The notes under the pieces were generated by a model. That model had not been told where the DNA came from and did not search any database. It saw nothing but the letters and a program-made list of their open reading frames with translations. From NCBI GenBank assembly GCA_016936655.1, contig JAFGXL010000021.1:1-64000 (forward strand): DNA of 64,000 bases, in the 5' to 3' direction. The stretch's first letter is position 1, and each line of letters opens with the position of its first letter. A program made the position numbers and the translations under genes. Source of the DNA: Nitrospirota bacterium. GTDB taxonomy: Bacteria; Nitrospirota; Thermodesulfovibrionia; Thermodesulfovibrionales; Dissulfurispiraceae. Positions 55,182-56,799 of the stretch are shown piece after piece.

Positions 55182-56504
55182 TTATCCGCTAACTTCAAAC
55201 TTGCCGTCTGATCCTATCTCAATATCAGCCTTAAGAAATTTGACATTATACCCCTTCTCTTTGAGTATCTCATATGCCATTTCTGCTCTTACGCCTGTTG
55301 AGCAGTGAACAATTATTAGCTTATCCTTTGGCAGCTCATTATATCTGGCTGCTATGTCATCAGCAGGAATATTTATAGATTTTTTAACAGCGCCTGCTGC
55401 TGCCTCATCCTTTGAGCGAACATCCAGAACAACAGCCTTGCCTGACTGGACAGCCTCGACAAATTCAGCAATCGTTATCTCGCCTGGTCCATACTGCCTT
55501 GTATACTTGATCTTTGGAAGGGCATCTCCGCTTTTTATTGCATAGCCTTTTTCCTTCCACTTAGCCAGACCGCCGTCAAGGCCTGTAACATTTTTATATC
55601 CCCAGTCCCTTATGGTCTTTACAGCAGAAGCAACATCAGATTCTTTGTCTGCATAAAATACTATCGCTGCTCCCCTGTATGCAGGAAAATCATCTCTGTC
55701 TTCAAGCTTTGCCAGCGGAACAGCTACTGCGCCATCAATATGACCCTGTTTTACTGCATCAGCCGCGCGCAGGTCTATTACTACAGCTGTGTTGGCCTTA
55801 AGATTTTTGTGAACAAAATCTGGTGATGATACTGTGTGATGTCCTGATGATATCCATACAGGCTCACCTTCTGCATAAACCTTAACATTCTGATATCCCA
55901 TCTTTTTCGCCAGACCGGCGGATTTAGGGCTCATGCCTCACGTTACACCGCCGCAATAGAAGATCAAAATTTTTGACTTGTCAGCAGGTAGAACCTTTTC
56001 ACCCTGTTTTTCGAGAACTGGCACAGGTATATTCACAGCTGTAGGTATGTATCCTTCACTGCATTTTCCTGCAGGCCTTGAATCTACCAAAAAGTAGTTG
56101 CCTGCATCTGGACCTTTGGCCACCAGAGCAGCAAGCTCCGTTGTGTTAATCGCTGTAACTCCGGCAGGCAGTTTTGCAACAACACGGGTTATTACAACCG
56201 CAACATTGTCAGCCCCAACCTGCTTATAATCAACACCGACAGCATCTTCCGTAAGAAACTCTTTTGTACTTTTTGCATTCACAAGGGCTGTCTGGTCATT
56301 GAACTTAAAAACCATTGTCCCCTTGCCGGCAACAGCTATTGAAAGAGTTTTTGATTTGTTTGCCAATGCCTTGAGATTGCCCTTTACTGATTGAAGTTTA
56401 ACCTCATCAGCAGCTACAGGCTGAACAAAGACATTGCTCATGCTGAATGCTAAAAACAAAAATAGTGTAAAAACTACCAATAAACCACTTCTTTTGATTC
56501 GCAT
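55182..56504 (-). CDS. Triple-rhodanese exported protein with in-frame TGA, probable selenocysteine (Sec189)
   Basis: Sulfurtransferase-type protein of 440 residues if the TGA at 55938-55940 is read. A signal peptide (about 7-32) is followed by a small N-terminal domain (33-110) and three rhodanese domains (about 115-222, 225-325, 340-440). The first active-site loop reads YCGGVT, then TGA, then GMSPKSAG, where I expect Cys in relatives, giving Cys184-x4-Sec189. The second domain lacks a catalytic Cys; the third has HCSTGVR. The frame is open on both sides of the TGA (188 and 251 codons). A SECIS-like hairpin follows at once. Alternatives are a fresh nonsense mutation or two genes (56504-55938; ATG at 55934). 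Confidence 0.75.
55897..55929 (-). other. SECIS-like hairpin after the rhodanese TGA
   Basis: On the minus strand, starting 9 nt after the TGA: lower stem CCC/GGG, a purine-rich internal loop, upper stem CGCC/GGCG (55920-55908) and apical loop GGUCU. The GU in the loop is 26-27 nt from the U of UGA. The E. coli fdhF SECIS has the same GGUCU sequence in its loop at nearly the same distance. Confidence 0.6.
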
Positions 56505-56799
56505 TGCTTAACCTCCTGATTTATAGAATTTATTTGTTAACCTTCGTTACTACGCCCTTGAGTCCCTTTTCAATTATATAAATTGTTGCATAATAACGCA
56601 ACTGTTAAACAATGGGCATTAAAAAGACTTATATCTAAACTATAACTATTTTTTCGGCTGATAACTAGAGACTTAATAAAAGCAATCTACACCTGATCAG
56701 CCAACATCCCTATTCTGGTAATACTACTATTTATGTTTGATAATATAGGACGGATTGCCTTAGAATTATGTCTTAATCAACAAATATGGAGGATTATAG

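Follow-up and report, generated by a model that had tools for sequence, protein, structure and literature searches.

Gene organisation and domain architecture

The analysed window is a stretch of 64,000 nucleotides from a Nitrospirota bacterium (contig JAFGXL010000021.1), taken from an assembly of 42 contigs which is 97% complete (GCA_016936655.1). On the minus strand at positions 55182–56504, a reading frame starts with ATG, comprises 440 codons and ends with TAA; its sole interruption is a TGA at codon 189 (55938–55940, minus strand). The original prediction, which was made from the DNA sequence, had described one TGA in an otherwise continuous frame of 440 codons, and translation of the minus strand bore this out. 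The strand had been left unstated; read on the plus strand, the same region contains many stops. As anticipated, standard reading with translation table 11 yields two ORFs, which encode 188 aa (55938–56504) and 250 aa (55182–55934). An AGGAGG ribosome binding site was read from the sequence at 56512–56517 (minus strand), 7 nt 5′ of the ATG. From the translation and from 91 full-length homologues of the same architecture, the whole region was assigned as the gene of a probably exported triple-rhodanese selenoprotein.

Codons 1–33 (56406–56504, minus strand) read as MRIKR, a hydrophobic core and VAA/DE, and probably encode a Sec-type signal peptide. The product is thus probably exported. The AlphaFold2 model, calculated from five input sequences (mean pLDDT 74, pTM 0.51), consists of a strand-rich N-terminal domain followed by three rhodanese-like units, with low pLDDT at residues 1–34 and in the loop 185–188. 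The secondary structure of the model places the N-terminal β-strand domain at residues 38–107 (56184–56393, minus strand), and a Pfam search of the protein matched no family to these residues. In 63 of the 91 relatives the N-terminal part carries a CXXCH heme-binding motif, which is missing in the window protein (56184–56504) and its closest clade; some members of the family may bind heme.

The Pfam rhodanese family PF00581 matched the protein in three stretches with 147.1 bits (gathering score 22.2). Rhodanese domain 1, delimited by Pfam and the model, comprises residues 116–222 (55839–56159, minus strand) and contains the active-site loop C184-GGVT-U189. The codon of its active-site residue Cys184 (55953–55955, minus strand) corresponds to an invariant column in alignment A1, and the TGA follows five residues past Cys184, so that the predicted Cys184-GGVT-TGA motif in the first rhodanese loop was found as described. 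Domain 2, residues 228–325 (55530–55823, minus strand), was recognised by Pfam, the model and the alignment, and has the sequence FYADKESD in place of a loop with an active-site Cys. Domain 3, residues 343–430 (55215–55478, minus strand; best Pfam stretch 345–426), carries a canonical CX4R loop, C401-STGV-R406, with the Cys401 codon at 55302–55304 and with His400, Cys401, Gly404 and Arg406 invariant in the alignment. A CX4R-type catalytic loop is hence present in domain 3 and absent from domain 2, whereas in domain 1 the loop begins with Cys184 and Sec replaces the Arg.

Two elements of the original prediction need to be refined accordingly. The designation triple-rhodanese holds for the three Pfam stretches, but domain 2 lacks the active-site Cys and is therefore probably not a third catalytic domain. 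A Cys had been expected at position 189, and Sec or Cys is indeed found there in nearly all homologues; the catalytic Cys of the domain, however, is Cys184, and the TGA occupies the loop-end position that is Arg406 in domain 3. The top Foldseek matches of the model were multidomain sulfurtransferases (EanB, YnjE, 1yt8); the global TM-scores were low, which would follow from an uncertain arrangement of the domains in the model.

Conservation of the in-frame TGA and selection around it

Relatives were collected by stop-readthrough searches of the family (31 genomes), the phylum (296 genomes) and, with a Desulfobulbaceae relative as the query, a second phylum (395 genomes). The full-length relatives obtained mostly contain exactly one internal TGA. 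Among 91 non-redundant full-length relatives, the column of residue 189 holds TGA in 75, Cys (TGC or TGT) in 13 and Gly, Arg or Trp in three, which amounts to Sec or Cys in 88/91. The nearest comparison is a same-genus relative, 79% identical, in which the TGA likewise stands at codon 189. A Sec form with the loop YCGGPTUGMS (L050) is also present in the cultured Desulfogranum japonicum DSM 18378. Both forms of the gene occur side by side as paralogues in one genome (G003; Sec copy L046, Cys copy L031), and at least nine changes between the Sec and Cys labels were counted on a maximum-likelihood tree by a quick method, with some forks weakly resolved. A plasmid search revealed no relative on plasmids.

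Pairwise comparison of the window gene with the same-genus relative gave dN/dS values of 0.06 in codons 111–188 and of 0.10 over the 251 codons past the TGA, which indicates constraint on the amino-acid sequence encoded downstream. In codons 190–230 dS drops to 0.41, compared with 1.26–2.03 elsewhere, which points to an additional constraint at the nucleotide level directly behind the TGA.

Several related genes were also noted. The same-genus relative carries the Sec copy and, immediately behind it, a Cys tandem paralogue with a shortened loop (YCVGG--CLSP; L117, G019:C40:8855-10183), which is missing from the window genome. The first half of another relative (G030:C102:4828-6185) is interrupted by two to three in-frame TGAs, and its downstream half stands apart; this gene may be decaying or may encode several Sec residues. 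Sister genomes also encode small single-domain rhodaneses of about 145 aa with one in-frame TGA each (L041, L040, G024:C33:12094-12360, G028:C12:163294-163578 and G025:C57:52895-53173). The motif YCRGVGUVLS of L041 places Sec at the same loop position as in the triple-rhodanese, and by their sequences these small proteins are probably further Sec rhodaneses.

A SECIS hairpin downstream of the TGA

The bacterial SECIS (bSECIS) element, CGCC-GGUCU-GGCG, lies at 55905–55923 on the minus strand (core 55908–55920, apical loop 55912–55916) and consists of a 4-bp stem with the 5-nt loop GGUCU, which is located 21 nt past the UGA. It is supported by covariation, a synonymous-codon null, the contrast between Sec and Cys forms and the suppressed dS. 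The published bSECIS model specifies a loop of 3–9 nt, a stem of 4–16 bp, G in the first two loop positions and a distance of 16–37 nt from the UGA (PMC13188914); with 4 bp, 5 nt, GG and 21 nt the window element falls within these limits. A GGUCU loop may also be suitable for SelB of E. coli.

Judged from its own sequence alone, the window hairpin would be weak evidence. It has a folding energy of −6.4 kcal/mol by itself, another pairing is preferred in the minimum-energy structure when a longer stretch is folded (z about 0), and its five of seven possible pairs are equalled by 9% of synonymous shuffles. The evidence becomes strong because the same hairpin occupies this position in 73/75 Sec-containing relatives, and in this respect the predicted SECIS-like hairpin behind the TGA was confirmed. 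In these 73 Sec forms all four core pairs are complete, compared with a mean of 10.7 and a maximum of 21 under the synonymous-codon null, and with only 3 of the 13 Cys forms. On average 6.21 of seven positions are paired in the Sec forms, against 4.51 under the synonymous null (z = 13.8). A G in the first two loop positions was found in 74/75 Sec forms; this count is less telling since the amino acids alone give loop G in 87% of synonymous shuffles (first set of 50). Changes on both sides occur at six of seven pairs among 59 distinct sequences, and the covariation score was reached by 0 of 500 shuffles, a test that is inflated by the relatedness of the sequences. Relatedness is preserved in a slide control, in which shifting the partner by 1–3 columns abolished the covariation signal, and the contrast between Sec and Cys forms is independent of it.

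Selenocysteine machinery of the genome

The original prediction had called for a search for selA, selB, selC and selD, and all four genes were found in the genome. The tRNA-Sec with the anticodon UCA scored 69.7 bits, above the cut-off, and ARAGORN called it as tRNA-SeC(tca). Homologues of selA (E = 1.4e-184), selB (E = 7.5e-109) and selD (E = 1.7e-98) were identified as well, and the rhodanese gene shares its contig with selA, at a distance of about 20 kb. The selD gene (L051, G000:C18:12193-13125) contains an in-frame TGA of its own in the context KAAGUAGK with the hairpin AGGUCC-GGC-GGACCU directly behind it, and SelD is therefore probably a selenoprotein in this genome.

Decoding of UGA189

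These observations are best explained as a whole by a functional selenoprotein gene, a conclusion that we hold with high confidence. As judged from the sequence evidence, UGA189 is almost certainly decoded as selenocysteine by SelA, SelB, SelC and SelD of the genome, directed by the hairpin with the GGUCU loop. A one-base error of sequencing or assembly might be suspected in an assembly of 42 contigs; yet dozens of independent genomes in two phyla share the TGA, several of them with the gene on one genome-sized contig (e.g. G009, G171 and G186), and an error was for this reason excluded, its probability being practically nil. It is likewise extremely improbable that the TGA is a nonsense mutation which inactivated a Cys-encoding gene. 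The two separate ORFs obtained with table 11 and the existence of Cys homologues would agree with a pseudogene, but the TGA is common to 75/91 homologues in two phyla, including the nearest relative, so that neither an error nor a recent nonsense mutation offers an explanation. Moreover, purifying selection continues downstream of the TGA and the hairpin covaries; the shared TGA together with this selection led us to reject the pseudogene.

Translation could also stop at the UGA and restart at the ATG of codon 191, which opens the ORF of 250 aa, so that two proteins would be produced. We regard this as very unlikely: Met191 is not conserved and is Leu in many relatives of the URLS and UALS types, a Shine-Dalgarno sequence at a usable distance from this ATG is missing, and the break would cut through the active-site loop of a rhodanese domain. 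The frame stays open whichever residue the UGA encodes, and this would also hold for its reading as another amino acid, in the manner of genetic code 4, or for nonspecific readthrough. Such decoding is most improbable, however, given a genome with a UCA-anticodon tRNA-Sec and a full Sec system, a covarying hairpin behind the UGA, an alternative residue in the relatives that is nearly always Cys, and neighbouring genes that are intact under table 11.

Relation to known rhodanese selenoproteins

A 2026 review lists five forms of rhodanese selenoproteins, including form 1 (PF00581, UxxS, WP_010941598.1) and TsoB with the motif UxxxxU (PMC13188914). The window protein shares the UxxS motif of form 1 as U189-G-M-S192, a likeness seen at the level of the motif, and URLS, UAMS and UMLS occur as motifs of this type in other family members. 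The rhodanese part of TsoB (NF045694, rhodanese/DsbD fusion-like) aligns to residues 115–228 (E = 9.5e-19 for the whole protein), and its UxxxxU motif has the same X4 spacing as Cys184-X4-Sec189. TsoB differs in being a DsbD-like fusion listed with two Sec residues, and has domain 1 alone in common with the window protein, which scored 66.9 bits with the TsoB model, far below its cut-off of 805. The form 3 model NF041203, rhodanese_LYCAU (seleno)protein, also describes a rhodanese family that includes selenoproteins; its motif is CxU instead of CX4U, its best match is domain 2 (residues 230–323) and not the Sec domain, and the score of 65.7 bits lies below the cut-off of 115. By description, the family resembles ExtH of Geobacter (extHIJKL), an exported rhodanese-like lipoprotein of similar size (49 kDa) from anaerobic Desulfobacterota. 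Unlike the window protein, ExtH is not reported as a selenoprotein. Variable rhodaneses have been reported for the extHIJKL locus (PMC6148476).

In the NCBIfam profile search the window protein reached no cut-off, and the best matches of 15–16 aligned family members were the same general models, compared by E-values only. The claim of a new selenoprotein is therefore justified, with respect to NCBIfam, for the triple-domain family, which has no model there, but not for the UxxS and UxxxxU motifs, since rhodanese selenoproteins with these motifs are already catalogued (PMC13188914). As a model for the family is lacking, the gene would probably appear in annotations as two fragments, and automated annotation would probably divide the genes of its relatives in the same way.

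Proposed function

Gene context was examined at about 40 Nitrospirota and about 20 Desulfobacterota loci. Apart from frequent two-component regulators and kinases, no neighbour was conserved across the family at these loci. The Sec forms are mostly solitary and often located near two-component regulators, so the gene context says little about them. At four loci of one genus (L115, L116, L129 and L132; family f5, genus g20), a multiheme cytochrome of about 630 aa and small single-domain rhodaneses are encoded beside the gene. In three Cys-form relatives (L173, L181 and L187), an ORF of about 735 aa directly follows the rhodanese gene. Pfam identified this ORF in L173 as a molybdopterin oxidoreductase with a TAT signal, and the ORF of L181 is alike by eye. 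The order in L173 (4839–11894) is DUF3373, a small ORF, rhodanese, Mo oxidoreductase and an NrfD/polysulphide reductase anchor, and the ORFs of L181 and L187 are similarly ordered; this apparent operon looks like a cluster for an extracytoplasmic sulfur-compound reductase.

Since the Sec forms have no conserved operon partner, we infer from the fold and the gene neighbourhood of the Cys forms that the most likely role of the protein is the handling of sulfane sulfur in the periplasm. There, polysulfide or thiosulfate would donate sulfane sulfur to Cys401, Cys184 or both, where it would be bound as a persulfide. Sec189 would then attack the persulfide of Cys184, whereby sulfide would be released or the sulfur passed on, and the remaining Cys184-Sec189 selenylsulfide would be reset by a periplasmic reductant. 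We give this mechanism, in which Cys184 and Sec189 act as a persulfide-resolving redox pair, an even chance of being correct.

The selenoprotein might instead serve in the redox chemistry of selenite, tellurite or metals rather than in the transfer of sulfane sulfur. The mostly solitary position of the Sec forms leaves room for such a task, and the rhodanese lipoprotein ExtH is encoded in the Geobacter locus extHIJKL together with the porin ExtI, which is required for the reduction of selenite and tellurite (PMC5877670, PMC6148476). The CXXCH motif in the N-terminal part of most relatives and the multiheme cytochrome adjoining the gene in one genus point in the same direction. The window gene, however, has neither a CXXCH motif nor a cytochrome neighbour, and ExtH was likened to the family by description and not by sequence; we consider this task unlikely, if far from negligible.

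Returning to sulfane sulfur, we tentatively suggest for the family as a whole that it represents an unmodelled, widespread group of exported triple-rhodanese selenoproteins in Nitrospirota and Desulfobacterota, mostly in the Sec form. Replacement of the loop-end Arg by Sec would create a persulfide-reducing Cys-X4-Sec centre, and the proteins would act as selenium-dependent extracytoplasmic polysulfide or thiosulfate reductases instead of plain sulfurtransferases, a proposal that we think possible but somewhat short of probable.

The gene described here illustrates how an intact and widespread selenoprotein may escape annotation. The repeated exchange of Sec and Cys, together with the occurrence of both kinds of paralogues in one genome, constitutes a natural experiment on the retention of selenocysteine, and the Cys-X4-Sec loop suggests a form of selenium-dependent persulfide chemistry that can be put to the test. 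Correct annotation would give back a periplasmic rhodanese to many sulfur-cycling anaerobes.
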